A stretch of DNA of 64,000 nucleotides from Sulfitobacter geojensis (GTDB lineage Bacteria; Pseudomonadota; Alphaproteobacteria; Rhodobacterales; Rhodobacteraceae). Positions 1 through 15,988 of this stretch are shown here, in pieces (position 1 is the stretch's first letter; every line of letters begins with the position of its first letter). The notes beneath the pieces were generated by a model, which saw only the letters and a program-made list of their open reading frames with translations, was not told the DNA's origin and searched no databases. The position numbers and the translations under genes were made by a program. The stretch spans positions 186,001 through 250,000 of the forward strand of contig NZ_JASE01000005.1 of NCBI RefSeq assembly GCF_000622325.1, written 5' to 3'.

Positions 1-1101
1 GTCCTGTTGGAATTCTTGCGCATCATTCGCCTGCATATCGACAACGGGGTACAAATCATCCGGCTGGATGCTGTGGCCTTCTTGTGGAAGGAAATCGGCA
101 CTTCTTCAATTCATCTGCCGCAAACCCATGCGGTGATCAAATTGATGCGGCTGCTGTGCGATTTTGCCACGGAGAAGGTGATCCTGCTGACGGAAACCAA
201 TGTGCCAAAGGCCGAAAACCTAAGCTATTTCGGGTTAGGCGACGAGGCCCACGCCATCTACAACTTTCCTTTACCCCCATTGATCCTGCACGCAATGATG
301 TCCGGGAACGCGCGGTACTTGCGCCAGTGGCAACGTGGCATGCCGCCCGCACCAATGGGATGCGCCTATCTTAATTTCACGGCAAGCCACGATGGCATCG
401 GTATGCGCCCCGCCGAGGGAATATTGCCGGACGACGAGAAACAGGCGGTGATTGACACGGTACGCGACATTGGCGGGTTGGTATCGATGCGCACAATGCC
501 TGACGGCAGCGAAAGCCCATACGAGCTGAACACAACCTTTTATGATGCGATGTCGCGTACCTTTGCGGGGCCGGATACGCACCAACACGCACGGTTTATC
601 TGTTCGCAAACCATCGTGATGTCGCTTGAGGGTATTCCCGCGTTTTACATCCACGCGATGCTGGCAACGGCCAATGATCACGACGGCGTCGTGCATCGCG
701 GCATGAACCGTGCCATCAACCGGCATCGCTGGGATTATCCCAGCCTGCGGGCCTTGTTAGCCGATCCAACTACACCCAATGCGCGCGTGCTCGCGGATCT
801 TTCCGCGCGTCTGAGAATCCGGCAAAAACAGGCGGCATTTCACCCCAATGCCACGCAGTTCACCGTCAACATGGGGGATGAACGCGTGTTCGGGATCTGG
901 CGCCAAAGTCTAGATCGCCATCAGTCCATTTTCGCACTCCACAACGTCAGTGACGCCGATGTGTCCGTTCCCGCAGCCGCGCTCAACTTGATCGAAGATC
1001 AAGAATGGGTGGATTTGCTAAGCGGTGCCCCGATTGACGCAACCGCCGACGAACTGACGGTCGCCCCCTATCAATGCATGTGGATTTCGAACAGGACCTA
1101 A
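1..1101 (+). CDS. GH13_18 sucrose/glucosylglycerate phosphorylase-like enzyme, 5' truncated by window
   Basis: This is the C-terminal part of a glycoside hydrolase family 13 subfamily 18 enzyme; the reading frame is open to the window edge, so the true start lies outside. The visible catalytic landmarks are the nucleophile segment IIRLDAVAFLWKE, the acid/base segment ILLTETNVP and the transition-state Asp in TASHDGIGMRP. Family members phosphorolyse sucrose, glucosylglycerol or glucosylglycerate to glucose-1-phosphate. The neighbours are a GT81 glucosylphosphoglycerate synthase and an MPGP-type phosphatase, converging on it with a 3-bp gap. That context favours glucosylglycerate phosphorylase over sucrose phosphorylase, but the acceptor specificity is inferred. 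Confidence 0.8.
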   Translation, partial: VLLEFLRIIRLHIDNGVQIIRLDAVAFLWKEIGTSSIHLPQTHAVIKLMRLLCDFATEKVILLTETNVPKAENLSYFGLGDEAHAIYNFPLPPLILHAMMSGNARYLRQWQRGMPPAPMGCAYLNFTASHDGIGMRPAEGILPDDEKQAVIDTVRDIGGLVSMRTMPDGSESPYELNTTFYDAMSRTFAGPDTHQHARFICSQTIVMSLEGIPAFYIHAMLATANDHDGVVHRGMNRAINRHRWDYPSLRALLADPTTPNARVLADLSARLRIRQKQAAFHPNATQFTVNMGDERVFGIWRQSLDRHQSIFALHNVSDADVSVPAAALNLIEDQEWVDLLSGAPIDATADELTVAPYQCMWISNRT

Positions 1102-1104
1102 GCG

Positions 1105-2325
1105 CTAGACATACTCGGCTTCGTCCGCAGCTGCGGCGGCGTGCAGTTCTTCAAGAAAATCCGGCTCTGCCGAATGGACGCGGTTCCATGTGGTGATGAA
1201 AGGGGTCTCATGCGGGTTATCCAGAAAGAACTGCCCGGCGCGCATGATGTTTTCTGCAAACAGTTCGATGGCGCGTTCTTCCTTGTGACGGTCGATGCTG
1301 AGGCCGTTCATCTTGGCATCGTTGTAATATGCTTCCATCACATCAAGCGCGCAGCGATAGTAGGTCGCTTTGAGCGTCCGGAAAACATTCGGTGTAAAGA
1401 CAGTGCCATCCGCGGCAAGCTTGCGAAAGATCGCCTTGCAAATGTCGGTCGACATACGGCTAAGGCCGGCATTTGCGTCATCCTCACTTAGCACTTGATG
1501 CTTGTGGTCGTATTGGTCCGCGATTTCGACCTGACAGACCGCTTGCGGTGCCAGATTGCGCCAAGCCTCGGACAGGATTCCAATTTCAAGACCCCAATCC
1601 GAAGGGATCCGCAAATCAGGCAACATTGTTGTGCGCATCGCGAATTCGCCGGACAGAGGGTAGCGGAAGCTACGCAAATAATCGATGTAATCGCGGTCGC
1701 CCATCACCTTCTTCAGCGCAATCAGCAACGGGCTGACAAGCAGGCGCGACACGCGACCGTTCAAGCGGTCCTGCCCAACGCGCGCGTAATACCCTTTGGC
1801 CAATTGATAAGGAAAATTCACGTTCGCAACAGGATAAACCAACCGCGCCAACATCTCGTTCGTATAGGTCAGGATATCGCAATCATGTATCGCCATGACC
1901 GCGCTGTCCTGACAACTGATGAGATAGCCGATCGATGTCCAGACGTTCTTGCCCTTGCCAGGTTCCGACGGTGCCAACCCCATCGCGACAAGCTTTTCAC
2001 CAAGCGCCAGCATCCTTGGACTGTCGTTCCAGATCACAATATGGTTCTGGTTCAACCCTTTGAAGAATTCTTTGGCGTGGCGATACTGCGCCTCGTCAGC
2101 GCGATCCAAACCGATGATAATGCGGTGGAGATAGGGGACCTTGGACAGCTCGTCCAATATCCGCGGCATCGCGTCCGTCTCCAGTTCCGAATACAAACAC
2201 GGCAAAACCAGCGACATTTTGCGCGTCTGGGCAAAGCTTTCGAGGTCGGACGTCATTTCCGCAACCGAGCGCGTGCGCAGGTTATGAAGCGTTGTGATAT
2301 TTCCGTTTTGATGAAAATCAGCCAT
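1105..2325 (-). CDS. Glucosyl-3-phosphoglycerate synthase-like glycosyltransferase (GT81 type)
   Basis: This 406-residue GT-A type glycosyltransferase probably makes glucosyl-3-phosphoglycerate (or the mannosyl analogue) from a sugar nucleotide and 3-phosphoglycerate. The sugar-nucleotide segment GKGKNVWTSIGYL is followed by the metal-binding HDCDILTYT, and PLSGEFAMRTTML and SDWGLEIGIL are typical of the GT81/GT78-like acceptor region. The HAD phosphatase just upstream on the same strand (16-bp gap) would dephosphorylate the product, as in known gpgS-gpgP pairs. The sugar donor cannot be read from sequence. The product is a compatible solute in other bacteria. Confidence 0.8.
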   Translation of the reverse strand: MADFHQNGNITTLHNLRTRSVAEMTSDLESFAQTRKMSLVLPCLYSELETDAMPRILDELSKVPYLHRIIIGLDRADEAQYRHAKEFFKGLNQNHIVIWNDSPRMLALGEKLVAMGLAPSEPGKGKNVWTSIGYLISCQDSAVMAIHDCDILTYTNEMLARLVYPVANVNFPYQLAKGYYARVGQDRLNGRVSRLLVSPLLIALKKVMGDRDYIDYLRSFRYPLSGEFAMRTTMLPDLRIPSDWGLEIGILSEAWRNLAPQAVCQVEIADQYDHKHQVLSEDDANAGLSRMSTDICKAIFRKLAADGTVFTPNVFRTLKATYYRCALDVMEAYYNDAKMNGLSIDRHKEERAIELFAENIMRAGQFFLDNPHETPFITTWNRVHSAEPDFLEELHAAAAADEAEYV

Positions 2326-2341
2326 CGGGACTCGTCCTTTT

Positions 2342-3124
2342 CTACAGTTTCAGGCGGGCGAGATGGCCCATGATCGCCGCATTCCACCCCTGCGGTCCAG
2401 CAAGTCGGGTGCGCATGATCCGCCCCGTCTTTTCGCCTTCAAGCAAGGGTAGGTCTGCGCCGTGGGGATTTGCAACGATGACACCGAAATCCGCGCTCTC
2501 CAGCATTTCGGCATCATTGGGCGCATCACCAAGGGCAATGGTGTGACGGGGGCGGAGTTCATCAATGATCTGCGCCATCTGATCGGCTTTTGTGCCACCA
2601 AACGAAAGCGTCAAAAACCGCCCCCCCTCGCGAGCGACAACACCTTGTTTTGTAAGATCTTCAAGAAACTGGGCTTTTTCTTGGGATGTGCCCGACCACG
2701 TTCCGGGCTCCGAATATCCGCGCTGCTTGGCAAGGGCCGCTGCCGAAGCCGTCAGACCCGTCAGCCGGACGACTTGCGCCGTATCCATATCGCCAAAACC
2801 ACAGAAGCCCCGCCTAAGGTTTGCCGGAATATTACCCAGAACGGCGCGCAATTGGGCATAAGTGAAACCGTCCGCAACGGCCTGTGCATGTGGCGCAAGC
2901 AGTCCTGCGCCATTCTCAACGATCGCAGGCCAGTGTTGCAGTCCCATTTCTTGACGCAATTCACTGATTTCGAGCGCCGTTTTGCTGCTGGCCAACACGA
3001 CCCCCGCACCAATATGCGCCAGTCTTTCAAGGGCCGGCAGCGCTGCATCCCAGCGATAGTCACCGTGCGACAGCAGCGTCCCGTCAAGATCAGTGAATAC
3101 AAGTAGCGGCATATCGGATGTCAT
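2342..3124 (-). CDS. HAD-family mannosyl/glucosyl-3-phosphoglycerate phosphatase-like (MPGP)
   Basis: A 260-residue HAD hydrolase. Motif I is VFTDLDGTLL, with the nucleophile Asp near residue 11. ASSKTALEI carries the motif II Ser/Thr region, and the C-terminal ALGDAPNDAEML is motif IV. The cap type and ALGDAPND match the MPGP/Cof-like subgroup that removes the phosphate from mannosyl- or glucosyl-3-phosphoglycerate. It lies 16 bp upstream of the GT81 synthase and probably shares its transcript. The frame extends to 3226, but the ATG at 3122-3124 starts right before the HAD motif; MPLLVF at 3112 is the alternative start. Confidence 0.8.
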   Translation of the reverse strand: MTSDMPLLVFTDLDGTLLSHGDYRWDAALPALERLAHIGAGVVLASSKTALEISELRQEMGLQHWPAIVENGAGLLAPHAQAVADGFTYAQLRAVLGNIPANLRRGFCGFGDMDTAQVVRLTGLTASAAALAKQRGYSEPGTWSGTSQEKAQFLEDLTKQGVVAREGGRFLTLSFGGTKADQMAQIIDELRPRHTIALGDAPNDAEMLESADFGVIVANPHGADLPLLEGEKTGRIMRTRLAGPQGWNAAIMGHLARLKL

Positions 3125-3292
3125 AGATCCAAGCCTGCAAAAATTGACCTCGGGTGGCAAGTCGCGTCCTTGCAGGTATCCGTTACAATGGGTCAGCGCC
3201 TGTGGCCGCGTATGGTTCACGGCCAAACGGCGCGCCGGAGGTGTCCGTTACGCGGACCTATGCAAAATATGCCATTCGCCCGCGCGACACAT

Positions 3293-4045
3293 TCAGTAAG
3301 TCGCGCGGCCGCCGGAAAGATCGAACACCGCGCCCGTAGAATATGAACATTCTTGCGAACACATCCAGCCGACCATCGCTGAAATCTCTTCAACTGTTCC
3401 CATGCGCCCCATCGGAATCTTGGCCAGCATATAACCGATTTGTTCTTCGGTGACGTCATCCAGCATTTCGGTTTTGATCACAGCGGGACAGATCGCATTC
3501 ACGCGGATGTTGCTTGTCGCCAGCTCCTTGCCCAAGCTCTTGGTCAACCCGATCACGCCCGCCTTGGACACCGAATAGGCCGAGGCATTGGGATTGCCCT
3601 CTTTGCCTGCCATGGACGAGATGTTCACGATCCGCCCGTAATCGCTTGTTTGCATGTAGGGCACGATGGCGCGGCAGGTGTGAAAGATGCCGTTCAAATT
3701 CACGTTCATCACGGCGTTCCACGTGTCGAGGGGGTAGTCGACCACGGCTGTGTTAACCCCCGCAATTCCTGCCGCGTTTACCAGAATTTCAATACCGCCA
3801 AGGGCCTCGGACACGCTTTTGGCTGCTGCTTCGACGGTGGCGTAATCTGATACATCAACCTTGTTGACGACCACATCACCCAATCGATCAAGCGCGGTTT
3901 TGGCGCGCGCCAGCGCCGTTTCGTTGACGTCCCACAGGGCGACAGAAGCCCCGCTTTGCAAAAACCGTTTGGCAAAGGCAAAACCCATGCCGCGCGCGCC
4001 ACCCGTGATCACGGCCCGACGGCCCTTGAGGTCCAGAGTATTCAT
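3293..4045 (-). CDS. SDR-family NAD(P)-dependent dehydrogenase
   Basis: This 250-residue classical short-chain dehydrogenase has the cofactor motif TGGARGMG (residues 14-21), NAAG (90-93), the Ser in NISSMAG and the catalytic YSVSK (Tyr157, Lys161). It is the last gene of the leftward kinase-enolase-FAH-SDR operon. Family members beside an FAH-type hydrolase include 2-keto-3-deoxy-L-fuconate 4-dehydrogenase, which oxidises a 2-keto-3-deoxy sugar acid to the 2,4-diketo acid. That role is inferred from context. A GTG at 4052-4054 is possible, but the ATG at 4043-4045 is preferred. Confidence 0.85.
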   Translation of the reverse strand: MNTLDLKGRRAVITGGARGMGFAFAKRFLQSGASVALWDVNETALARAKTALDRLGDVVVNKVDVSDYATVEAAAKSVSEALGGIEILVNAAGIAGVNTAVVDYPLDTWNAVMNVNLNGIFHTCRAIVPYMQTSDYGRIVNISSMAGKEGNPNASAYSVSKAGVIGLTKSLGKELATSNIRVNAICPAVIKTEMLDDVTEEQIGYMLAKIPMGRMGTVEEISAMVGWMCSQECSYSTGAVFDLSGGRATY

Positions 4046-4076
4046 ATTGGTCACTTTCGTCGTGTCACGTATGTCC

Positions 4077-4925
4077 CTAAAGGGCGGTAACAGTTTGCTT
4101 TTGTGTGCCTAGCCCGTCGATACCAAGGGACACTTCATCGCCCTCGTTCAGCCAGACAGGCGGTTTCATACCGGCGCCCACACCCGGAGGAGTGCCGGTG
4201 CAGATCAAATCGCCCGCCTCCAGACGGGTGAATTCGGACATATAGCTCACGATGGTTTCAACATCGAAGATCATGGTCGCGGTATTGCCGGTTTGCATGC
4301 GCTTGCCATTCACCTCCAGCCACATGCCAAGGCTTTGCACGTTTTCAATTTCGTCCTGCGTCGCCATGAATGGCCCTGTCGGACAGAAGTTAGGAAAACT
4401 CTTTCCCTTGACCCACTGGCCTGCCCGCTCCATCTGCCAGGCGCGTTCGGACAGATCGTTCACCAAAACAAAACCGGCGACATGATCCATCGCATTCTCT
4501 TTGGAAATGTTCAGCGCAGGTTTGCCGATCACGATACCCAACTCGACCTCCCAGTCGAGCTTTGTCATCTGCGCGGATTTCAAGATATTATCGTTCGGTC
4601 CGCAGTAGGTCACCGTGGATTTGTTGAACAGAATAGGTTCATCAGGCACGGGCAGCCCCGCTTCTTTCGCGTGATCTGTATAATTCAGACCGACGCACCA
4701 GATGTTAAAGGGCTGCGCCACGGGCGGTGCCAAGCGCTTGCCTGCGATATCCGCAACGGGCAAGGTTTTGGGGTCGGTGTTAGACAGTTGCTCCAACAGC
4801 TCTGGGGACATAGTTCGCGGACCGAAATCTGTAACGATCGACGACGCGTCGCGTGCCACGCCATCATCGTCAATGATGCACGGGGTTTTCGTACCGTGCC
4901 GGTCGCCGTAACGCGATAGTTTCAT
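4077..4925 (-). CDS. Fumarylacetoacetate hydrolase family protein, diketo-acid hydrolase-like
   Basis: A 282-residue FAH-fold hydrolase. The conserved core GLNYTDHAKE is followed by the metal ligands in KLDWEVELGIVIGK and by NDLSERAWQ, with CTGTPPGVG near the C-terminus. Length and motifs resemble 2,4-diketo-3-deoxy-L-fuconate hydrolase and ureidoglycolate-lyase-annotated proteins, which cleave a 2,4-diketo acid to pyruvate plus a hydroxy acid. Its ATG overlaps the enolase-paralogue stop (ATGA), with AAGGGACC as ribosome binding site, so translation is probably coupled. Paired with the downstream SDR it would end a sugar-acid pathway. The substrate is inferred, not shown. Confidence 0.85.
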   Translation of the reverse strand: MKLSRYGDRHGTKTPCIIDDDGVARDASSIVTDFGPRTMSPELLEQLSNTDPKTLPVADIAGKRLAPPVAQPFNIWCVGLNYTDHAKEAGLPVPDEPILFNKSTVTYCGPNDNILKSAQMTKLDWEVELGIVIGKPALNISKENAMDHVAGFVLVNDLSERAWQMERAGQWVKGKSFPNFCPTGPFMATQDEIENVQSLGMWLEVNGKRMQTGNTATMIFDVETIVSYMSEFTRLEAGDLICTGTPPGVGAGMKPPVWLNEGDEVSLGIDGLGTQKQTVTAL

Positions 4926-6238
4926 GTTTTTGGTCCCTTTTTATTCTCTTTGCCCCACCATGTGTTTGCCAATGGCGCGCCGCCAACAAAGGCTGCTGCG
5001 CCCAAAACGTCCTGAATGCGCAGGCATTCGTTCCACTTCACCATCCGCTCGGATCGGGTAAACGAGCCAACCTTTAACTGGCCTCCGCCCAATCCTGTCG
5101 CCAGATGGCTGATTGAGACATCTTCGGTTTCGCCGGACCGCGCAGATACAATCGCCCGCCATCCGGCGCTTTGCGCTTTTCGGAACGCCTCTATGCTTTC
5201 GCTGACAGTGCCGGCTTGGTTGACCTTGATCAGCACTGCGTTGCATGCGCCGTCTTTCTGCGCCTGATCAACAAGGGTCGCGTTGGTCACAAGATAATCA
5301 TCGCCGATGATCTGCACCCTGTCCCCGAAACGGCGGGTGAATTCGCAAGTCCCCTCTTTATCGGTTTCGGCAAGCGGGTCTTCGATGGATGCAATCGGAT
5401 AGGCGTCAAGCCAGCCCCCCAGCATGTCGATCATGGCGTTGCTATCCATATCACGGTCTTCAAGTGCCAGCCGGTAACGGCCGTCATTGCAGAATTCGGA
5501 AGCCGCAATATCAAGTGATATGACAACCCGATCACCGGGCTTTTCACCCGCTTTTTCGATCGCACCGATCAGGGTTTCCAAAGCTTCCTCGTTGCTGTCG
5601 AACATCGGCCACCAGCCGCCTTCGTCCGCGACGCCTGCCAGTTTTCCTTTGGACTGCATAATGTCGCCAGCGGCGAAATAGACCTCGTTGGTGATCTCCA
5701 TCACCTCGTCAAAGCTGTTGGCACCGGGGACCATGATCATAAAATCCTGAATATCGACGCGGCGTCCAGCATGGGCCCCGCCGCCAAAGATCTGGATTTC
5801 GGGCAAGGGCAGAGAGGGCGTAAACCCGTTTTGCTCCGCCACATGTTGCCACAGGGCGCAACCCGCATCCGCCGCCGCCGCATGAAGAACCGCAAGGGAG
5901 GTCGCAACCGTGGCGTTGCCACCAAGCGTCTTTTTCAGCGGGGATGGATCAAGCGCAAGAATTGCACCGTCAGCGCCTGACTGGTCTTGCACATTACGCC
6001 CCCTTAGTGCGGCAGCGATGGGCCCGTTAACGTTCTTCAGCGCCTGCACGACGTTCTTGCCTTGCAAGGCCGCGCCGCCATCTCGCAGATCAATCGCCTC
6101 GCGTGTGCCGCGCGATGCCCCTGCTGGCGCAATGGCGCGCCCGACGACGCCATTTTCCAAAATAACATCAACTTCGACGGTTGGATGCCCGCGCGAGTCC
6201 CAGACCCGCCGCGCGAATACGTCTTTGATATGCGACAT
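4922..6238 (-). CDS. Divergent enolase paralogue with His373->Ala and Glu168->Asp substitutions
   Basis: This 438-residue protein aligns end to end with enolase. Using yeast numbering, the retained residues are Ser39 (here 42), His159 (156), Glu211 (206 in ADEGGWWP), Asp246 (243), Glu295 (286 in SIEDP), Asp320 (in GDDYLVTN), Lys345 (338 in LIKVNQAG), Arg374 (367) and Lys396 (389 in QLKVGS). Two catalytic positions differ: Glu168 is Asp165 in VDIQDFMI, and His373 is Ala366 in SARSGETED. Both codons were read directly from the DNA. The gene sits between a kinase and an FAH hydrolase in a catabolic operon, so it is probably not the glycolytic enzyme. Its reaction is unknown. Confidence 0.85.
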   Translation of the reverse strand: MSHIKDVFARRVWDSRGHPTVEVDVILENGVVGRAIAPAGASRGTREAIDLRDGGAALQGKNVVQALKNVNGPIAAALRGRNVQDQSGADGAILALDPSPLKKTLGGNATVATSLAVLHAAAADAGCALWQHVAEQNGFTPSLPLPEIQIFGGGAHAGRRVDIQDFMIMVPGANSFDEVMEITNEVYFAAGDIMQSKGKLAGVADEGGWWPMFDSNEEALETLIGAIEKAGEKPGDRVVISLDIAASEFCNDGRYRLALEDRDMDSNAMIDMLGGWLDAYPIASIEDPLAETDKEGTCEFTRRFGDRVQIIGDDYLVTNATLVDQAQKDGACNAVLIKVNQAGTVSESIEAFRKAQSAGWRAIVSARSGETEDVSISHLATGLGGGQLKVGSFTRSERMVKWNECLRIQDVLGAAAFVGGAPLANTWWGKENKKGPKT

Positions 6239-6240
6239 GT

Positions 6241-7248
6241 TTATGCTTCCTTTAAACCTGTTATCAGGCGCTCAATCCCTTTTGACAGGGTCGAAGACGG
6301 CTCTTTGATCAGGGAAATCGCCAAGGCACGCACCTGCGCGCGCTCGGCCTCATCCAGATATTCCACCGGTGATTTTCCGTCGACGCGCCCCAACATCAAC
6401 GCTGGCAGAAGACGGGCAATGCGACCCTCCAACACGTCTGTCGGCTCCCAAGTGACGTGCGCGGCATAGGCAGACCAGAACGCGCCGACCTCGGCCAATA
6501 ATTCGCTGCGCCGTTCGGGGATGTGCACGGATTTAAGCACCAGATGGTTCAGGCAAAATGCCGGATCGAAACTGGCATCCCCCATCGTTGCACATTCGGC
6601 ATCCAGAATGATCGCGCCACCGTCGCGAAACAGGATGTTCTTGGGGCTAACGTCGCCATGCACCAAAACCGCGGAACTGTCATAAAGCATCCCCGCCAAT
6701 GCATTCAGTTGCCCAGCAACATCCGGATGGGACCGTGCCGTGAACGTAAGATAGGGTTCAATGCGAAGCGCGCGGAAATCGTCACGGTTTTGAAACGGGG
6801 TGCGATCAAATCCCCCTGCGCTTGACGCTGCATGAATGCGCCCGATCATATCACCAACGACCGCGGCCTCCCCTTTCGGGGCGGCACCCGCCAGCAATCG
6901 GGCCTTCCAAAGGTAAACGTCATTGCCGGTCACATATTCCATTGCGAAACCGTGCGCCTGTTCCGACCTGCCAAAAAGCTGCACAGCACTTTGCGGCACG
7001 ATGTCTGCGGCAACCTGCAACCACGCGTATTCGGCCGCGTTGCGGTGGACCGGTGCCCGCCAATCTGCCGCGACCTTGAGCTTGGGCAAAGCGAACTTGA
7101 CGCAATACTGCGTATCACCCACCACGACCGTGGCAATATCGGACGCAACGCCCCCCGTCAGCGGCACAATTGACGCTATTTCGTCGCTGCGACCCAGGTT
7201 CAAATCCACAATCAGGTCTTTGCATTTTTGTTCAAGTGTCTGGGTCAT
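6241..7248 (-). CDS. APH/choline-kinase-fold small-molecule phosphotransferase
   Basis: A 335-residue kinase of the aminoglycoside-phosphotransferase/choline-kinase fold. The catalytic loop is VHGDVSPKNILF (His197-Gly-Asp199, Asn204) and the metal-binding segment is ILDAECA (Asp216). The N-terminal lobe carries YCVKFA with the ATP-binding Lys. No resistance-gene context is present. It is the first gene of the operon, 2 bp before the enolase paralogue, so it probably phosphorylates a catabolic substrate that the enolase paralogue then uses. Families of this fold phosphorylate choline, homoserine, methylthioribose or hydroxylysine; the substrate here cannot be read from sequence. Confidence 0.8.
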   Translation of the reverse strand: MTQTLEQKCKDLIVDLNLGRSDEIASIVPLTGGVASDIATVVVGDTQYCVKFALPKLKVAADWRAPVHRNAAEYAWLQVAADIVPQSAVQLFGRSEQAHGFAMEYVTGNDVYLWKARLLAGAAPKGEAAVVGDMIGRIHAASSAGGFDRTPFQNRDDFRALRIEPYLTFTARSHPDVAGQLNALAGMLYDSSAVLVHGDVSPKNILFRDGGAIILDAECATMGDASFDPAFCLNHLVLKSVHIPERRSELLAEVGAFWSAYAAHVTWEPTDVLEGRIARLLPALMLGRVDGKSPVEYLDEAERAQVRALAISLIKEPSSTLSKGIERLITGLKEA

Positions 7249-7267: not shown

Positions 7268-7283
7268 ATGTTCACGTGAACAT
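7268..7283. promoter_or_regulatory. Perfect 16-bp palindrome, probable LacI-family operator
   Basis: ATGTTCACGTGAACAT is a perfect inverted repeat centred in the 114-bp gap between the divergent kinase operon and the LacI-type regulator. LacI-family operators are typically such even palindromes with a central CG. Its position 20 bp upstream of the kinase start fits repression of the kinase operon and possible autoregulation. Confidence 0.7.
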
Positions 7284-7362: not shown

Positions 7363-8340
7363 GTGGCCCGCGTTACGATCAAATCAATTGCAAAAGACCT
7401 TGGCATTTCGCACATGACGGTGTCCCGCGCGCTGTCAAATAATCCTAATGTTCTGAAAGAAACGCGCGATGCCGTTCAAAACCGTGCGCGTGAGCTTGGC
7501 TATGTCAAAAACGCGGCAGCCATGGCGATGCGGGGGGATGGAGCGAAAATTGTCGGCTTGGTTTTGCCCAATATTGTAAACGAATTCTATGCGCGTTTTG
7601 CCAATGCCATGGCGCTCGCCTGTGATGCGCAATCCTTGCAACTGGTCATTCATCTGACCAACGATAATATGGAAACCGAAGAACAGGCATTGGAACGGCT
7701 GCGCGAAATTCAGGCGTCTTGCGTTGTAATGGTTCCTGCACCGGGTCAGGCTAATTCGAAAGCGGATCACCAAGGATCTATGCGGATTATCGAATTGATC
7801 CGCCGGCGGGATAGCCCAACGCCGAACCCCGCAATTCTGGTCGAGGATTCCCCAGCCATTGGCGCAGCGGTTGCACATCTGGCACAGGCAGGGCACAGCC
7901 GAATTGCCTATATTGGTGCGGACAAATCCCTGTCCAGCGGCCGCGGCCGGCTTGCTGCATTTCTGGGCGGCATTCAGGAGGCAGGGCTGGAAGCCCCGGG
8001 CACGTTGATACGAACCGGCACTCCTTCGTTCGAAATGGGGCGCAAAAATGCGTCCGATATTCTGGCGTCGGGATCGGCAACCGCACTGGTGTGTGGCGGG
8101 TTCGAAATATCGAACGGTGCCCTGAGTGCATTCATGGATCATACCGGTAGCGATGGTTCAAAACCGGCTTTTGTGGGTTACGGCGACCCGTCGTTTTACA
8201 AGTGGGTGAACGGTGGCGTAACAACAATCAGGGTGCCCGTTGTCCATCTGGTAGAATGCGCCCTTACATTGATATCCGCACCCACGCCCCTTGAACCCAT
8301 TCTGGCACAATCGTTTCCCGCAGAACTGGTTCTGCGTTAG
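7363..8340 (+). CDS. LacI-family transcriptional regulator
   Basis: A 325-residue LacI/GalR repressor. The N-terminal helix-turn-helix reads VTIKSIAKDLGISHMTVSRA, followed by the hinge region. The periplasmic-binding-like effector domain includes KIVGLVLPNI, AILVEDSPAIG and RIAYIGADKS. The start is GTG at 7363, where homologous regulators begin. It is divergent from the kinase-enolase-FAH-SDR operon with the 16-bp palindrome between, and convergent with the TRAP genes. A sugar or sugar-acid effector is the usual case for the family and is inferred here. Confidence 0.9.
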   Translation: MARVTIKSIAKDLGISHMTVSRALSNNPNVLKETRDAVQNRARELGYVKNAAAMAMRGDGAKIVGLVLPNIVNEFYARFANAMALACDAQSLQLVIHLTNDNMETEEQALERLREIQASCVVMVPAPGQANSKADHQGSMRIIELIRRRDSPTPNPAILVEDSPAIGAAVAHLAQAGHSRIAYIGADKSLSSGRGRLAAFLGGIQEAGLEAPGTLIRTGTPSFEMGRKNASDILASGSATALVCGGFEISNGALSAFMDHTGSDGSKPAFVGYGDPSFYKWVNGGVTTIRVPVVHLVECALTLISAPTPLEPILAQSFPAELVLR

Positions 8341-8459
8341 GCGAGGCGCGCAAAGAAACGGCAGCAATTTGGCCTCGCATACAAAAGCGACCAGAACCGA
8401 ATGTATACTTCGGATCATTGGCCGCTTTTGATCGACAGCGTGCGGGGATCACCGCACCC

Positions 8460-9767
8460 TCATTTTGCATACGCCAGTTCGGGTAAAAAGGTGGCGATGG
8501 CCGGGATGAACATGATCATCAGCAGGGTAATGACCTCGACCTGCAAGAACCACCAGATGCCGCCAAAGATCTCTTTCAGCGAGAACGAGGGCGCGACACC
8601 TTTCAGGACAAAAGCGTTCAACCCGACAGGCGGTGTGATCAGGCCAATCTCAAGCGTTTTGACCACAACAATCGCCAACCAGATCGGATGCGCACCCAGT
8701 TCGATCAGCGGCGGCACAAAGATCGGCACAGTCAGGAACATCACCGATACCGGATCTACCATGCAGCCCAACACCAGCAAGAGCAGCACGTAGATGCACA
8801 CGATGCCCATCATCGACATATCAAGGCCGACGATGTACTCCGACACCGCCCCTGATGCGCCACTTACCGCAAGGTAGGACGAGAAAATCAGAGCCCCCAC
8901 GAGAATGATGAAAATGACCGATGTTGTTTGCGCCGTATCGAGAAAGACTTCCTTCAAGACGGCGAATGACATCCGCTTGCGCAGCAAAGCGATCAGGAAA
9001 GACCCGACAGCACCAATTGCGCCTGCCTCCGTCGGGGTGATGATGCCCGCGTAGATACCGCCGATCACGATGCCACCAAGGGTCAGGAAGCTCCAGACAC
9101 CCTTCAAGGACTGTAAACGTTCTTCGATACCGGCTTTCGGAAGGGCGGGTGCCATTTCCGGATTACGGCTGACGCGGATATAGATCATCACGAGATACGC
9201 AAAAGCGGTCAGCAGTCCCGGAACAATGCCGGCGATCAACAGTTTGGGCACGGATTCGCGCGCGATAATACCGTAGACAATCAAGTTAATGCTTGGCGGT
9301 ATCATCCCGGCCAGCGTGCCCACGGTGGCGACACAACCGGCCGCAAGCTTGCGGTTTACCTTCAGGCGCAGCATTTCAGGGATCGCCACGCGCCCGAAAA
9401 CAGCGGTGGAGGACGTGGTAGACCCCGAACACGCGGCAAAGGCAACGGCGGCAACTGTCGTTGCGATCACTACGCTGCCTTTCAGGTGTCCCAGCCAGGC
9501 GCGCGTGGCCCGATAGATATCTTGCGTGATACCAGCCTTGGCTGCGACGTGCCCCATCAAAAGGAACAGGGGCACCGCGCTTAGCGCATAACCGGAGCCG
9601 ATATCGAAAAGCCGCCCGCCAATGGCATCAAAGGTGATTGTTACACCGCGAATGAATGCAAATCCCGTCGCCCCCGCCAACAGCAGGGAAATCCCCACAG
9701 GCACGCGCATGATCATCAAGACCGCGACCATGCCGATCACAAACGGTAGTTGAAGTGATTCAATCAT
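8460..9767 (-). CDS. TRAP transporter large permease (DctM type)
   Basis: This 435-residue polytopic inner-membrane protein is the large permease of a tripartite ATP-independent periplasmic transporter. Typical segments are MRVPVGISLLLAG near the N-terminus, FAACSGSTTSSTAVFG, GTLAGMIPPSINLIVYGI and ITPTEAGAIGAVG, all conserved in DctM. It carries out Na+- or H+-coupled uptake of a small organic acid delivered by the binding protein. Its start overlaps the small permease stop by 4 bp. It is last in the dctP-dctQ-dctM order and convergent with the LacI gene. Confidence 0.92.
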   Translation of the reverse strand: MIESLQLPFVIGMVAVLMIMRVPVGISLLLAGATGFAFIRGVTITFDAIGGRLFDIGSGYALSAVPLFLLMGHVAAKAGITQDIYRATRAWLGHLKGSVVIATTVAAVAFAACSGSTTSSTAVFGRVAIPEMLRLKVNRKLAAGCVATVGTLAGMIPPSINLIVYGIIARESVPKLLIAGIVPGLLTAFAYLVMIYIRVSRNPEMAPALPKAGIEERLQSLKGVWSFLTLGGIVIGGIYAGIITPTEAGAIGAVGSFLIALLRKRMSFAVLKEVFLDTAQTTSVIFIILVGALIFSSYLAVSGASGAVSEYIVGLDMSMMGIVCIYVLLLLVLGCMVDPVSVMFLTVPIFVPPLIELGAHPIWLAIVVVKTLEIGLITPPVGLNAFVLKGVAPSFSLKEIFGGIWWFLQVEVITLLMIMFIPAIATFLPELAYAK

Positions 9768-10327
9768 GGCTTTTCCCCGGCTTCAACGGCACCCTGATGC
9801 GAAAGATCATTGACGCCAGAGTCCTCAAACAATTCGTTTTTTGTGATCAGATGGATCAATTGGGTCAGAAACCTGAGCGCAAACAGCGCCAGCCCAATCG
9901 GGATGCCAGCGCGGGCCCACCATGTTTTTACTTCGATGATGCCAAGGACCGTGTCACCCATGAGATAATTGGTCCACGCGGATTCAGCGCTGGTCCATGT
10001 CAGCATGGAAAAGAACAAAAACGCAGCAAGAAGGTAGACACCTTCGATCGTCTTTCTGACGCTTCGGGGCATGTGGTCATATAGAATGCCCACTGTGATA
10101 TGTGCGTCGTGGCGTTGCGAGTATCCAAGGCCCAGATAGATCAGATAGACAAACATCAAGCTGACATATTCATAGGCGCCGGGTAAGCTTTTGGAAAACA
10201 ATGCCCGCGCAAGAACTTCGAGTACGGTGATTGTCATCATTGTCGCGACGGCCATCGCCGACACATAACAGGCGATTTCCTCCAGCTTCTTTTGCACCAA
10301 CAGGGCGCGGCTGGCTAAATTTGTCAT
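9764..10327 (-). CDS. TRAP transporter small permease (DctQ type)
   Basis: A 187-residue membrane protein with about four hydrophobic segments and the DctQ signature around VLARALFSKSLPGAYEYVSL and YLGLGYSQRHDAHITVGIL. It pairs with the large permease it overlaps by 4 bp. A 176-bp gap containing a strong hairpin separates it from the binding-protein gene upstream. Confidence 0.9.
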   Translation of the reverse strand: MTNLASRALLVQKKLEEIACYVSAMAVATMMTITVLEVLARALFSKSLPGAYEYVSLMFVYLIYLGLGYSQRHDAHITVGILYDHMPRSVRKTIEGVYLLAAFLFFSMLTWTSAESAWTNYLMGDTVLGIIEVKTWWARAGIPIGLALFALRFLTQLIHLITKNELFEDSGVNDLSHQGAVEAGEKP

Positions 10328-10503: not shown

Positions 10504-11523
10504 TTAAAGGTCGTCGTTCTTTTCAAGAAGCGCAACGAACTCGTCCAGTACGGCCTGACCCGCAAGGCCATCTGCCTCGCGTGCATCGACCCAGTTCTGC
10601 CAGGCAACATCACGCGCACTGATCATCTTTTCCCATTCTGCCTCGTCGAACTTAACGACATCAGTCTGTTGGTTCAGGGCATCAATCGCTTCACCTTCAG
10701 TTGCTTCCAACAGCAGGCGCGCTTGCGAAACTGTCTCGTCACGAACCTCTTCGATCACAGCTTTCACGTCATCAGGCAGACCGTTCCAAGTATCTAGGTT
10801 GATGGATACTGGCAGTGGGAAGTAGAACCAATCTACCGCATCCCAGTAGCTGAAGATTTCGCCAAAGCCGAAGGCATATGCATCTGCTGGCGCACCAATG
10901 ATCGCCGCTGTGACAACTTTACGTTCTGCAGCAGCTGGCAGTTCGCCCCAAGGGATACCGTAAACCGTGATGTCCAGTGCTTTCAATAACTCGGCCGCAC
11001 CACCGTGCGCGCGGATCTTGGCAGCTTTGAGGTCTTCGACCGAACGGATCGGATCGTGAGACAGCATCTGGATGGACCCCCATTGACCCGGGAACAGATA
11101 CTTTTGGTTCATCGCAGTGAACTCAGCTTCGACCGCCGGCGTCTGGAACAGTTCGTGACCTGAGTGCACGTGCGCCATCGGGTTGTCTGTCATGAACGGC
11201 AGCGACGTCACATTCGCAAGCGGAAAGAGGCCGGGGTTATAGACCGGGGAAAAATCCCCCATGTCGAATGCGCCGACCTTGATGTTTTCCGGCTGACCGG
11301 AAAGCTTGCCAAGCGCGCCGCCGAAGATGCGGGTGAACTTCACCTTGCCTTCTGTGCGTTTTTCAACTTCGTCCATAAACCAGCGCGTTGCCAGATTGGA
11401 TGGACCTTTGCCCGTAAATGCATGGTACTTAAGGTTGATTTCCTCGGCCATAGACAGCGTCGGTACCGCCAGCGATGCTGCTGCAACCAAGGCGCTTGCA
11501 CATAGCGTTTTAACAAAATTCAT
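10504..11523 (-). CDS. TRAP transporter periplasmic solute-binding protein (DctP type)
   Basis: A 339-residue extracytoplasmic binding protein. A signal peptide (basic MNFVK, hydrophobic ALVAAASLAVP, cleavage near SMAEE) precedes the DctP fold, with NLKYHAFTGKGPSN, KFTRIFGGALGK and the AKIRAHGGAAELLKAL region that usually carries the carboxylate-binding Arg. The frame runs to 11613, but the ATG at 11521-11523 follows GGGAGAGGA and begins the signal peptide. The ligand is probably a carboxylate such as a sugar acid. A TGCGGGTACCCGCA palindrome lies 178 bp upstream. Confidence 0.9.
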   Translation of the reverse strand: MNFVKTLCASALVAAASLAVPTLSMAEEINLKYHAFTGKGPSNLATRWFMDEVEKRTEGKVKFTRIFGGALGKLSGQPENIKVGAFDMGDFSPVYNPGLFPLANVTSLPFMTDNPMAHVHSGHELFQTPAVEAEFTAMNQKYLFPGQWGSIQMLSHDPIRSVEDLKAAKIRAHGGAAELLKALDITVYGIPWGELPAAAERKVVTAAIIGAPADAYAFGFGEIFSYWDAVDWFYFPLPVSINLDTWNGLPDDVKAVIEEVRDETVSQARLLLEATEGEAIDALNQQTDVVKFDEAEWEKMISARDVAWQNWVDAREADGLAGQAVLDEFVALLEKNDDL

Positions 11524-11700
11524 GTTTTTTCCTCTCCCTTTATTTCCCGCTTTTGCAAACGCAAAGCGGTCTCCCTTAACAGCGATAAAATTACATATCG
11601 GCAGTCTCCTCACTGCCGAAATTGCCTGAACGGCCTAATCGCTTAATCTTTGCTTAACTTCCTTTCGAATGGGTTGGCACGGGGGTTCGCGCCGTGACTT

Positions 11701-12364: not shown

Positions 12365-13255
12365 TCAAAACAGCGGGAGGCCTGAGGATTTGACGCTTAT
12401 GCGATACAGTGATGTTGAAGAGGTGATGTAGAGGTCTGTCAAATCCTCGCCCCCCCAAGCAAAGTTGGCCGTAAACTCTGCCGTGCGGATCACGCCTAAC
12501 GTCTCGCGTGACGGCGTGATTACGTGGATCCCGCCGGGACCTGTGCAATAGACATTTCCCTTGCTGTCGATTTTCATCCCGTCAGGGTGGCCTTCGCCCT
12601 CGCCTACAGTGACCTCGACCCAGACATCGCCACCCGTTGCTGTCCCGTCTTCGGCAATATCGAATTTGCGGATGTGCTTGTGTTCTGTGTCGTTGACATA
12701 AAGCGTCGCGTGATCGAGCGAGAAACACAGACCGTTGGGCTGTGCAAAGTCATCCGCAAGACGGGTGATGGTCTTGCCGTCGGGCGTCACGCAATAGACG
12801 CCTTGAGCCCCCATTTGGAGTTCGCGTTCGACGCCAAAATAATCAAGTCGCCCATAGGTCGGGTCGGTGAAATAGATCAACCCGTCGTTGCGCACTACTA
12901 CGTCATTCGGACTGTTCAGTTCTTTGCCGTCAAAATGGGTGGCCAGCGTTGTGATTGATCCGTCTGCTTCGGTACGGGTGAGTGAACTGGTGGCGTGCTG
13001 ACAGGTCAAGATACGCCCCTGCGCATCATAGGTATTGCCGTTGCCCATGTTGCTTGGCTTGCGAAACGACGCAACCTTGCCGTCTGGCCCCAGTCGAAAC
13101 ATTTCGTTGCCGGGGATGTCGGAAAAGGTCAGGTGCTTTTCCACCGGATGCCAGATCGGCCCTTCGGTGAACAGGAACCCACCCGCTACTTTTTCGAGGG
13201 TTGCGTTGGCATCAATGATATCATGCATGCCCTCAGTGCGGATTTCGACGCTCAT
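12365..13255 (-). CDS. SMP-30/gluconolactonase family lactonase
   Basis: A 296-residue six-bladed propeller of the SMP-30/gluconolactonase/LRE family. Metal-site segments are FTEGPIWHP (Glu), ELNSPNDVVVR (Asn-Asp), FAQPNGLCFS (Asn) and GHPDGMKID (Asp), in the expected order. Family members hydrolyse aldonolactones to aldonic acids in a divalent-metal-dependent reaction. The ATG at 13253-13255 overlaps the tautomerase stop (ATGA), so the two are translationally coupled. Beside a TRAP importer and a sugar-acid type operon, a sugar lactone is the likely substrate, but this is inferred. Confidence 0.88.
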   Translation of the reverse strand: MSVEIRTEGMHDIIDANATLEKVAGGFLFTEGPIWHPVEKHLTFSDIPGNEMFRLGPDGKVASFRKPSNMGNGNTYDAQGRILTCQHATSSLTRTEADGSITTLATHFDGKELNSPNDVVVRNDGLIYFTDPTYGRLDYFGVERELQMGAQGVYCVTPDGKTITRLADDFAQPNGLCFSLDHATLYVNDTEHKHIRKFDIAEDGTATGGDVWVEVTVGEGEGHPDGMKIDSKGNVYCTGPGGIHVITPSRETLGVIRTAEFTANFAWGGEDLTDLYITSSTSLYRISVKSSGLPLF

Positions 13256-13461
13256 GAGTTCGCCCGCAATTCTTTGACCCGCGTTCCACCGGCGAACCAA
13301 TCCGTTTCGTCGATCTCGTCAAAAGTGACCCAAACGTTTTCGGCGGGAATTCCCGCAGCCTGAGCCAAAGACTCCGTCACGTCGGCCTGCACCTTGGCCT
13401 TAATGCCATCCGGGTCTTTTTCTATCACCTGTTTTACAATGCGGATGTTCACAAACGGCAT
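13252..13461 (-). CDS. 4-oxalocrotonate tautomerase family protein
   Basis: A 69-residue tautomerase-superfamily protein. The sequence begins MPFVNIRIV, so removal of Met exposes the catalytic Pro1, and VWVTFDEIDETDW is the usual C-terminal strand. Family members interconvert enol and keto forms of unsaturated acids. It is the first gene of a coupled pair with the SMP-30 lactonase. The TGCGGGAACCCGCA palindrome is about 115 bp upstream of its start. Confidence 0.88.
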   Translation of the reverse strand: MPFVNIRIVKQVIEKDPDGIKAKVQADVTESLAQAAGIPAENVWVTFDEIDETDWFAGGTRVKELRANS

Positions 13462-13606: not shown

Positions 13607-14338
13607 CTAGTTTGAAGAAAGCGATATCCAGGCCTCAAGTTTTTCCTCTTCGCGGCGCAATGCTTCTGCGTTTAAAATACCCTGCGTCAACGCCAGAGAA
13701 ATCGCCCGCGTGCGCGAATTGAAGCTTGCCCCCCACGCGCCAGAAGGAATGTCGTCCTTATCCAAACCAAGTTTCTGGTAAAGGCTCTGCAATCTGCTTT
13801 GTGCGCCGCGCAAGGATACGTTCCGCCGCGCTGCCATCGCTTTGTCCGTGAGGCCCAGACAAAGATCGACAAGCGCCTCGAATTCCAGCTCGCTTAGCCC
13901 CGAAAGACGGTTTCCTGCCCTTTGCTGCACGCTGCGCACTTCGCGGTCGATGACACATTGCTCTGCGATAAAAACGCCTTGAAGTGCCAGTTTCAGCTGT
14001 TCATCAGGGGCCGATTTCAGGATGTATCCGTAAACAGCGGCCTCCGGCACAATTTTGGTAATGCCGCGGATATAAGCCTCTTCGGTATAGTTCGACCAAA
14101 ACAGGATCTTCGTCGCGGGCGCTTTGGCCCAGATCGCTTTTGCTACATCGACACCGGTTACTTTGGGCATTTGCAGATCCAGAAGGACGCAGTCGTATTC
14201 TGCAGATCTAAAGGCCTCAATCGCCCCCTCACCGTCGCTTGTCAGCGTCAACTCATCCAACTCAGCGAAGGTATTGCGCGCCAAGCTCTCCAGAAAAGTC
14301 CGGTGCAGCTTGTCATCTTCGGCAATTAATAGGCGCAT
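13607..14338 (-). CDS. LuxR/NarL-type response regulator
   Basis: This 243-residue regulator has an N-terminal receiver domain: acidic pair in LLIAEDDKLH, phospho-acceptor Asp in CVLLDLQMPKVTG, and the conserved Lys in GYILKSAPDE. The C-terminal helix-turn-helix reads LSELEFEALVDLCLGLTDKA with SLYQKLGL. This is a divergent LuxR-type DNA-binding domain, weak at the usual recognition-helix positions, and is followed by an extra tail of about 50 residues. It starts 21 bp after the histidine-kinase stop and forms a two-component pair with it. It is the best candidate to bind the three TGCGGGWACCCGCA sites around it. Confidence 0.85.
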   Translation of the reverse strand: MRLLIAEDDKLHRTFLESLARNTFAELDELTLTSDGEGAIEAFRSAEYDCVLLDLQMPKVTGVDVAKAIWAKAPATKILFWSNYTEEAYIRGITKIVPEAAVYGYILKSAPDEQLKLALQGVFIAEQCVIDREVRSVQQRAGNRLSGLSELEFEALVDLCLGLTDKAMAARRNVSLRGAQSRLQSLYQKLGLDKDDIPSGAWGASFNSRTRAISLALTQGILNAEALRREEEKLEAWISLSSN

Positions 14339-14359
14339 GCAGTGTTCCGCTTTAAGAAG

Positions 14360-15595
14360 TTAAATGTTGTCACTTTCGACCTGACCCGCATTCATCGGAA
14401 CCACGATCATAACGCGGGTTCCGACAGGACCATCCAGACGTTCGAAAAAGACCTGTGCGGATATCAGATCCGTGCGGGTCTTGATGTTGCTGATACCGCT
14501 ATGGGATTTCAAATCAGCCTCCTGAATGCCTGTGCCATTGTCGTCGATTGCAACCGTCATATCAGCACCGGATTGTGCGATCCGCACGTCAAGCCGGCTG
14601 CACTCCCCGTGTTTCAGCGCATTGTTTACGGCTTCCTGAACGATACGGTAAACTGCGGTGCGCACGGTATCTTGCAGATCATCCATCTTGCCATTGGATG
14701 CATCATCAACATGCATCTCTATCGGACGATGCGTGTTCTTGAGACACCGCTGCAAATGAGCATCAACAGCTTCCGCAAAACCAAAAAGCTGTAGCACACC
14801 CGGTTTCATATCTTCGACAATACCACGGACCTCGTCCAGACAGTGATCCAGTTCGTCCTGAATGGCCGCGATTTCGTCCATGGCCGCTTTCGACCCGCCC
14901 TCGATGCGAGACATGCGCCGCCGTATCCGCGACAGATCTGCCAACGTTTGATCGTGAAGGTCCATCCCCAACCGCTGGCGTTCGCGCTCCATGCCTTCGG
15001 TCAAACGCAGGGCTCCAATGCGCAAAGTGCGCTCGCGCCCGGTTGCCTCAAGCTCTGTGACTGCAGAATCTTTTGCTTCTTTTCCCCGCTCCAGCGCAAA
15101 CAGATAGGCCGACACAAGATCAGCAGCCCCTTGGGCGAGCACAAGTAAATCTTCGCTGTAAAAGTTCTGTTTGTGGCTGGAAATGGCAAGCGAGCCGATC
15201 AGTTCACCCTGCACGCGCAGCGGCACAACAATACGGCTTCGCAGGTTGGCCTCAAAAATCGGTTTGCTGTCTGACCCCTCAAAATGGAAAACCGGATCAG
15301 TCCATGCGTCGTTGGTCAGAATATGGGGTACGTCGCCGCGCAACACCGCACGGATCGGGCTTTTTTCTGTCGGTTTTGCGGGGGCTTGCGTATGGCTCCA
15401 TGACGTATGCATGCGGGCCTCATAGCAAATCTGCGTCCCGGTCGGATGCAACAGCACGATGTCGAGGTGATCGTGGGCGATCAACACACGCAGGCGATTG
15501 GCAAAGTTCTCAAGAACCAGCTCATAATCTGTCGGACCGGCAATGGCCTGCGCAATCGACAGATAACAATCCAAAGCTTCAGCGGCATTTGGCAT
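14360..15595 (-). CDS. Soluble GAF-domain sensor histidine kinase (HisKA_3/NarX type)
   Basis: A 411-residue kinase with no membrane segments. An N-terminal GAF domain (roughly residues 15-165) is followed by a short coiled linker, the HisKA_3 phospho-acceptor region RLGMDLHDQTLADL, and an HATPase domain with NALKHGECSRL and DDNGTGI. It should sense a cytoplasmic or diffusible signal and phosphorylate the response regulator 21 bp downstream. The frame runs to a TTG at 15655, but the ATG at 15593-15595 follows AAGGAGGGGGG and is preferred. The signal is unknown; the neighbouring uptake and lactonase genes suggest a substrate cue. Confidence 0.85.
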   Translation of the reverse strand: MPNAAEALDCYLSIAQAIAGPTDYELVLENFANRLRVLIAHDHLDIVLLHPTGTQICYEARMHTSWSHTQAPAKPTEKSPIRAVLRGDVPHILTNDAWTDPVFHFEGSDSKPIFEANLRSRIVVPLRVQGELIGSLAISSHKQNFYSEDLLVLAQGAADLVSAYLFALERGKEAKDSAVTELEATGRERTLRIGALRLTEGMERERQRLGMDLHDQTLADLSRIRRRMSRIEGGSKAAMDEIAAIQDELDHCLDEVRGIVEDMKPGVLQLFGFAEAVDAHLQRCLKNTHRPIEMHVDDASNGKMDDLQDTVRTAVYRIVQEAVNNALKHGECSRLDVRIAQSGADMTVAIDDNGTGIQEADLKSHSGISNIKTRTDLISAQVFFERLDGPVGTRVMIVVPMNAGQVESDNI

Positions 15596-15988
15596 AAGAG
15601 CATACCCCCCCTCCTTGGATGTGTTCAGTTGATCATACTCCGGTTTTTTTATCAACTTAACCTCTTAATATCCGGCTGTTCTTTAACATCAAACGGGTTC
15701 TGGTGGTCGTGCAGGAACGTAAGCTAGGGTGCTATCCTGGTCTGAGCGTCGTCATAATCATGCGCGCTGATATCCACAGCTTGAGACACACGCGCATCGT
15801 CAATCGGGACAGGCTCGATTGTGTATTTATCCACCGGCAGATCCAGCCGCATGCTCTATCGGTCCTGTGCAAACAGCTGCCGCCACCGGCGGTGTCGGGC
15901 TGGTTTATAATCCGGTTGCCATTGAACAGGGTCTGCGATGCACGCAGCAATTTTGCGGGAACCCGCAAATACGTCGCCTCGGCGTCTT
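15596..15988. other. 393-bp intergenic region between the sensor kinase and thiX
   Basis: There is no supported gene here. It holds the leader of the two-component operon (RBS AAGGAGG near 15608-15614) and, at its right end, the palindromic site at 15954-15974, 14 bp beyond the thiX stop. No convincing terminator for the thiamine operon was seen. Confidence 0.6.
15954..15974. promoter_or_regulatory. Palindromic site upstream of the two-component operon
   Basis: This is an identical 21-base copy of the site at 13574-13594 (core TGCGGGAACCCGCA). It lies about 360 bp upstream of the sensor-kinase start and just past the end of thiX. If the response regulator binds it, the system is autoregulated. 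Confidence 0.58.

Follow-up and report, generated by a model that had tools for sequence, protein, structure and literature searches.

A stretch of 64,000 nucleotides from Sulfitobacter geojensis (contig NZ_JASE01000005.1, positions 186,001 to 250,000), referred to as the window at its full length, carries two adjacent genes encoding a kinase of the APH fold (KIN) and an enolase paralogue (ENO2). The two proteins are tentatively described as a two-step module that would convert a glycerate-type 2-hydroxy acid, most likely L-glycerate, into phosphoenolpyruvate (PEP), a reading to which a probability of roughly 0.45 is assigned. An altered second enolase accompanied by its own kinase in scattered bacteria looks like a private route from an unusual sugar-derived acid to a central metabolite.

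The Enolase_C domain occurs at two places in the genome of the window, in the canonical enolase (C5:2487807) and in ENO2, which are 41% identical. ENO2 has both enolase domains and scores 446 bits against TIGR01060, with a cut-off of 300. In the yeast numbering, which was transferred through motif anchors only, the window protein is enolase-like at S39, H159, Q167, E211, D246, E295, D320, K345, R374, S375 and K396, and differs at D168 and A373. The preliminary description of this DNA, which reported Ala at His373 and Asp at Glu168 together with intact metal-binding residues and Lys345/Lys396, is confirmed by this residue table. The wider family was collected by a scan of species genomes (the best 80 of 87 relatives) and by plasmid and genome searches, giving 96 rows, among which three pairs are identical in sequence and probably represent the same genomes twice. 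The query of the scan was the window's own protein, and other families with Ala373 could exist. D168 is found in all 95 readable rows and A373 in 94 of the 95 (the last has Gly), as opposed to E168 and H373 in 31 of 31 canonical enolases, and the catalytic combination of H373 with E168 is missing from the ENO2 family. The differences from canonical enolase extend to N152Q, N155G, P163R, A215W, T397V and Y409W, all near catalytic residues in the sequence; Q152, G155, R163, V397 and W409 are each present in 95/95 readable rows and W215 in 96/96. What is common to both proteins is the Mg ligands D246/E295/D320, the base K345, K396, the acid E211 and the phosphate pocket of R374, S375 and H159. 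Across the readable rows, the enolase-like residues listed for the window protein are unchanged, and K345 is present in 94, with one row unreadable and one gap. Annotated plasmid copies of ENO2 are named phosphopyruvate hydratase.

A quick maximum-likelihood tree, built from 94 ENO2 and 31 canonical sequences, separates the two groups at a branch with an SH-aLRT support of 100; two ENO2 fragments were omitted, and several rows are long-branched. Judged by sequence, ENO2 is a single family separate from canonical enolase and no sequencing accident. Its carriers include Alpha-, Beta- and Gammaproteobacteria, desulfobacteria, SAR324 and Verrucomicrobia. Its rarity in the order of the window (10 of 390 genomes) and its absence from the 15 other genomes of the genus in the sample suggest horizontal spread. 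The two enolases coexist, as a canonical copy was found in 30 of the 30 ENO2 genomes tested (among which two genomes seem to be present twice), and in none of them is ENO2 the sole enolase, a situation that would have contradicted the preliminary description. Two records deserve separate mention. Locus L034, in a record titled Oceanobacillus, holds an ENO2 80% identical to that of the window, which is odd for a Firmicute and reflects either transfer or contamination. In L071 (Phaeobacter sp. J2-8, around 7950-9270), ENO2 is called in two frames of 191 and 245 aa, owing to a frameshift or an assembly error.

The partner, KIN, matches APH as its sole Pfam family at an E-value limit of 0.001. Its fold of the methylthioribose kinase/APH type is accompanied by the HGD...N...D motif, with H197-G198-D199, N204, D216, K51 and several basic residues as invariants. 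Methylthioribose kinase and other APH-fold kinases are only 15-19% identical to KIN, which differs from them by its own invariant basic residues; the score against the methylthioribose kinase model TIGR01767 is 40.8 bits, below the cut-off of 275. The basic invariants are as may be expected for an acid substrate. The reaction proposed for KIN, 2-phosphorylation of a glycerate, resembles that of glycerate kinases of classes I, II and III. In the same Pfam search, KIN nevertheless had no match to class I (PF02595) or class II (MOFRL, PF05161), nor to the class III plant and yeast type. According to PMC2063504, the class II enzyme of T. tenax converts D-glycerate into 2-phosphoglycerate and has 30% activity with L-glycerate.

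The pairing of the two genes is close to complete. In the order-level sample of 390 genomes, ENO2 occurs in 10 and KIN in 11, ten genomes being common to both, and the eleventh KIN genome has a remnant holding pieces of both genes. This decayed pair lies at G021:C8:240675-241178 (L013, L141), in a 216-aa frame that comprises the front half of KIN and a small part of ENO2. KIN lies within the DNA examined at 91 of the 96 ENO2 loci, 90 of them through gene calls, which were codon-scored and missed some genes, such as the KIN of L034, found separately. A search with a Verrucomicrobia KIN as the query found a homologue (37-71% identity) in the genomes of the remaining five loci, and KIN is therefore present in every ENO2 carrier checked. 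The co-occurrence of the Ala373 enolase with this kinase family, proposed as a check in the preliminary description, is thus borne out. Flavimaricola marinus (G402, L055; C29 and C44, which are L146 and L147) has two ENO2 copies, each with KIN, an FAH-family hydrolase, the dehydrogenase SDR-B and an MR-family gene.

A divergent LacI-family regulator gene often adjoins the pair, its cluster being present at 42 of 96 ENO2 loci. The palindrome TGTTCACGTGAACA was found in 34 of 34 LacI-KIN intergenic regions, 32 times exactly and twice with one mismatch, although the loci include near-copies of one another. In the genome of the window, the operator is the only site with one mismatch at most. The same limit was used in the searches of 21 carrier genomes, 17 of which have the site at KIN, 15 exactly (places were compared by hand); G018 and G402 have no site at this limit. 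The reversed control pattern was found at two places in the genome of the window (G000) versus one real site, at one place each in G048 and G399, and in none of the other 18 genomes. With three mismatches allowed, the window has 4 matches, about as many as chance would give (2.77 expected). Even at one mismatch the number of sites by itself does not exceed chance, as the reversed control shows, and the evidence for the operator is the exact match recurring at a constant position.

Further sites occur in several genomes. A second site precedes a sugar ABC transporter in G395, G397, G399 and G048 (one mismatch each) and, as an exact match about 440 kb from KIN, in G391; G390 has a second exact site before a TRAP binding protein and an MR-family gene. 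The only other site of G396 precedes a tripartite carboxylate transporter, and in G398 the operator stands at KIN-ENO2 alone, with no FAH gene within the 19 kb examined. These two genomes indicate that KIN-ENO2 is possibly a self-sufficient unit. An additional one-mismatch site of G397 is located at C14:8098, and those of G125/G400 (C6:518155), far from KIN, were taken as chance.

In the window and in sister clusters, the pair is accompanied by an FAH-family hydrolase and dehydrogenases of the SDR family. The best PDB match of the window hydrolase is 8gsr, an L-2,4-diketo-3-deoxyrhamnonate hydrolase (E 2.5e-73); its score against NF053535, 351.9 bits, is short of the cut-off of 500. SDR-B, found in the sister clusters, is homologous to L-2-keto-3-deoxyfuconate 4-dehydrogenase (L-KDFDH; 8xwk and kin, 4e-60), with human DHRS6 placed higher (2e-65). 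The substrate arginines of L-KDFDH are R148/R192/R214 according to PMC11199699, which describes the structure entries, and all three are present in SDR-B of L094 by alignment, with an inferred numbering offset of 4. SDR-A of the window belongs to another SDR group, and the three arginines were not seen when its sequence was read by eye. Another SDR matches sulfoquinovose 1-dehydrogenase, behind two unnamed SDRs. FAH clusters thus look like oxidative sugar routes that would end in pyruvate and a hydroxy acid.

Some of these clusters have candidates for an ordinary dehydration step of their own. Candidate sugar-acid dehydratases, from the four unrelated MR/MLE, IlvD, galactarate-dehydratase-like and UxuA-like families, are present at 14 of 40 distinct FAH loci (16 of 44 rows if duplicates are counted), which may be an undercount, as a subset of the loci was extended. 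A 2-hydroxyacid dehydrogenase also occurs at 8 of the 40, none of them among the 14, and without these eight the count is 14 of 32. Examples are the gene orders KIN-ENO2-FAH-IlvD-SDR, followed by a weak lactonase-like gene (23% identity), in G401 and KIN-ENO2-FAH-SDR-SDR-MR in L147; in G001, IlvD is found further downstream. KIN-ENO2 is the constant part of these loci and the dehydratase varies.

Other clades place the pair in different surroundings. In 13 Verrucomicrobia loci no FAH gene was called, and an HpcH/HpaI aldolase and an aldo-keto reductase are each found in 10. A second clade has a 2-hydroxyacid dehydrogenase at 11 loci, several with a TRAP transporter; its representative comes closest to glyoxylate reductase, with 211 bits against a cut-off of 455. 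On three Rhizobium plasmids, KIN and a 2-hydroxyacid dehydrogenase stand beside PEP carboxylase. L008 and L048, which look like one genome, carry a tartronate-semialdehyde-reductase-like gene (176 bits, cut-off 341), and upstream in L048 such a gene accompanies a galactarate-dehydratase-like one, both below curated cut-offs. Three-carbon acids could be formed in the contexts marked by the aldolase, the reductase-like protein, the 2-hydroxyacid dehydrogenase and PEP carboxylase. At some loci the pair stands without any 2-keto-3-deoxy enzyme called beside it. Among the annotated neighbour clusters no recurrent phosphatase was found, save a calcineurin-like protein after ENO2 in three Verrucomicrobia loci. 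A known glycerate-kinase family is present in 15 of 15 genomes tested in a survey of classes I and II, with class II in 13, class I in 3 and both in one.

From the computed residues, pairing, separate clade, operator and contexts we infer a substrate with its stereochemistry, a phosphorylation at C2 and PEP as the product. KIN would use ATP to phosphorylate the 2-hydroxyl of a glycerate-type acid. ENO2 would then remove the alpha proton with its kept lysine and metal machinery and expel the C3 substituent, giving PEP. The retention of the 2-phosphate residues indicates a 2-phosphoryl substrate. D-glycerate is an unlikely one, because a glycerate kinase and a canonical enolase accompany the pair in all genomes tested for them; the acid would be one that these enzymes cannot use, most likely L-glycerate. 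FAH cleavage of a diketo-hexonate gives pyruvate and glycerate. In the window and its FAH-type relatives, the acid would be the non-pyruvate product of the cleavage of a 2,4-diketo-3-deoxyhexonate, whose C1-C3 become pyruvate and C4-C6 glycerate. Elsewhere an aldolase route or a hydroxyacid dehydrogenase may supply it, or it may be taken up directly by a carboxylate transporter. Since dehydratases coexist with the pair at 14 of 40 FAH loci and the operator of G398 is found only at KIN-ENO2, the pair is unlikely to be the sugar-acid dehydration step; the same observations suit a product, most likely PEP, that passes straight into metabolism. Such a conversion needs no phosphatase and explains the nearby PEP carboxylase, the carboxylate transporters and the stand-alone pairs. 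Either an L-form substrate or a 3-substituted glycerate would require the C3 side to be remodelled. It is possible, albeit less likely than not, that the stereo- or leaving-group specificity of ENO2 has changed in this way. The source of PEP would then be L-glycerate or a glycerate substituted at C3, for instance 3-sulfolactate or a 3-O-alkyl glycerate; a substituted acid of this kind would arise from FAH cleavage of a substituted hexonate, and ENO2 would expel sulfite or alcohol instead of water.

Several points weigh against this route from glycerate to PEP. In the DNA examined, 26 of 40 FAH loci have no ordinary dehydratase, and the pair could be the dehydration step there; a dehydratase candidate is found in just 4 of 60 rows without FAH. 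The window operon itself has none, though its genome has 5 IlvD and 4 MR/MLE matches, and some MR/MLE proteins are not dehydratases. The functions of the neighbours are family matches, several under curated cut-offs, and part of the neighbours was annotated. The exclusive site of G398 reflects a genome-wide search at one mismatch at most, leaving room for weaker sites, and an FAH search over 19 kb. The loop residues 40/43 of ENO2 vary among subclades, and its substrates may therefore differ between them. The L assignment is the weakest step, because of the dehydrogenases in some clades and the unclear geometry of Lys345. D-acids are the usual products of the 2-hydroxyacid dehydrogenase and tartronate-semialdehyde-reductase families, which counters the L form in those clades. 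If ENO2 binds the carboxylate and phosphate in the manner of enolase, the alpha proton of the L isomer would face away from the kept Lys345.

The chief alternative, that the pair stands in, by way of phosphorylation, for the usual aldonate dehydratase, is considered unlikely. KIN would phosphorylate the 2-hydroxyl of a C4-C6 aldonate, ENO2, in which H373A and E168D would have opened the C3 side, would dehydrate the product to a 2-phosphoenol-3-deoxyaldonate, and after the loss of phosphate the 2-keto-3-deoxy acid would pass to SDR and FAH or to the HpcH aldolase. His373 and Glu168 help to place the C3 hydroxyl in enolase, and their replacement fits such an opening. The likeness of FAH to a 2,4-diketo-3-deoxy acid hydrolase, the homology of SDR-B to L-KDFDH, the HpcH aldolase of Verrucomicrobia and the 26 FAH loci with no ordinary dehydratase in sight also speak for this alternative. 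A role of the pair as a generic replacement of sugar-acid dehydratases was in fact favoured initially, and it was demoted once dehydratase candidates were found in the same clusters. The lack of a recurrent phosphatase among the annotated neighbours, the pairs with no 2-keto-3-deoxy enzyme called beside them and the PEP carboxylase neighbours argue against it as well.

A second route from D-glycerate through 2-phospho-D-glycerate to PEP, under separate control, is improbable. It accounts for the same neighbours as the L-glycerate reading and suits the D-acid-forming dehydrogenase families, but a glycerate-kinase family and canonical enolase already serve all genomes tested (15/15 and 30/30), and the replacement of H373 and E168 in every readable member would be pointless. 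Even less credit is given to the version of the preliminary description, which amounts to KIN phosphorylating the 3-hydroxyl or another hydroxyl and ENO2 expelling phosphate instead of water to yield a 2-keto-3-deoxy acid for SDR and FAH. It makes a phosphatase unnecessary, and the new Arg163 of all 95 readable rows could in principle bind the displaced phosphate. It is not favoured, given the 14 of 40 FAH loci with dehydratases, the pairs without 2-keto-3-deoxy enzymes, and the retention in every readable row of S39, H159, R374, S375 and the acid E211; D168 and E211 would probably face the leaving phosphate, and we know of no enolase homologue that eliminates phosphate. The other proposal of that description, a route from glycerate to PEP linked to the adjoining glucosylglycerate genes, fares better in the type of route. 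Its substrate is probably not D-glycerate, and the glucosylglycerate link is rejected because clusters of those three genes (window 7-3226) occur in no other KIN-ENO2 locus among 97 gene-call sets; the label of these genes follows the preliminary description, and the basis here is cluster occurrence.

The features of the operon are listed in Table 1. The arrangement described previously, an APH-fold kinase before ENO2 and an FAH hydrolase and SDR after it, agrees with the open reading frames and Pfam matches, and the FAH and ENO2 genes share a 4-bp overlap.

Table 1. Features of the KIN-ENO2 operon and its surroundings in the window
Feature	Position	Strand or place	Basis and remarks
KIN (APH/methylthioribose-kinase-fold kinase, 335 aa)	6241-7248	minus	Pfam APH
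ENO2 (enolase paralogue, 438 aa, D168/A373/R163/W215)	4922-6238	minus	Pfam Enolase_N+Enolase_C; TIGR01060 446 bits; residue tables; tree
FAH-family hydrolase (282 aa)	4077-4925	minus	Pfam FAA_hydrolase; best PDB match 8gsr; NCBIfam NF053535
SDR-A dehydrogenase	3293-4054	minus	Start 4054 or 4045; Pfam adh_short / adh_short_C2
LacI operator TGTTCACGTGAACA	7269-7282	LacI-KIN intergenic region	Palindrome
LacI-family regulator	7363-8340	plus	Pfam LacI/Peripla_BP; divergent from KIN
TRAP genes DctM, DctQ, DctP	8460-9767, 9764-10327, 10504-11613	minus	Pfam; membership uncertain
SMP-30/gluconolactonase-like protein	12365-13300	minus	Pfam SGL; membership uncertain

The nearest PDB entries of SDR-A (6d9y, 9jve, 9kq1) are named merely as SDRs, and its relatives occur in FAH-type clusters. 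L071, the nearest relative, is alone in sharing the TRAP genes in the window form (81-97% identity), the remaining loci having a more distant TRAP or none; these genes were rejected as members of the regulon, as the operator is absent in front of them. Lactonase-like genes are seen too in L033, L055, L060, L071 and L094. Upstream of the SMP-30 lactonase lie two genes (window 13607-15655), the first of which (13607-14338) is response-regulator-like and recurs in L071 and L094; in L094, a GAF sensor kinase and response regulator are annotated beside a lactonase. About 145 kb from the operon, the same genome has a sugar-acid cluster of IlvD, SDR and MR/MLE genes (C5:337693-344659, partly L142), whose SDR has arginines at the L-KDFDH places, as judged by eye. 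In L080 (1041-1883), with members in L084, L087 and L088, a metallo-beta-lactamase-fold gene separates the aldolase and KIN; it scores 306 against the NCBIfam subclass B3 cut-off of 240 and is perhaps a lactonase by context. In a subclade on Rhizobium and Cupriavidus plasmids (L096, L099, L143, L144), ENO2 is accompanied by a VOC protein, a cupin and an NAD(P)H/FMN-reductase-type gene; the VOC protein of L099 is HpaD-like, below the cut-off, and the substrate of this subclade may differ.

The closest known pathway is the non-phosphorylative L-fucose/L-rhamnose route, comprising a 1-dehydrogenase, lactonase, dehydratase, 4-dehydrogenase and FAH hydrolase, to which the SDR-B arginines and FAH are similar. 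As described in PMC13406643, 6-deoxy sugars yield pyruvate and lactate. That route would need no KIN-ENO2, whereas loci of the window type add the pair. In PMC9007349, the words 'enolase' and 'glycerate' are absent by term count and from the passages retrieved. A search of the open-access literature by title and abstract start gave no description of a kinase-enolase pair or of a 2-phospho-L-glycerate dehydratase. That an enolase paralogue can acquire new chemistry is exemplified by the enolase-like carboxyphosphonoenolpyruvate synthase of the bialaphos pathway, although it serves a different pathway.

Enolase is a textbook enzyme of one substrate. Here, a clade spanning several phyla has its catalytic histidine replaced in every readable member, together with a private kinase, often a private regulator, and a place in sugar-acid clusters. 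If the substrate is L-glycerate or a 3-substituted glycerate, PEP would gain a new entry point, the glycerate-type kinases a further structural class and the enolase family a new reaction. The proposed route, if true, would let the non-pyruvate half of oxidised hexoses be recovered as PEP in a new way, would show how the specificity of enolase can move and would correct many misannotations.

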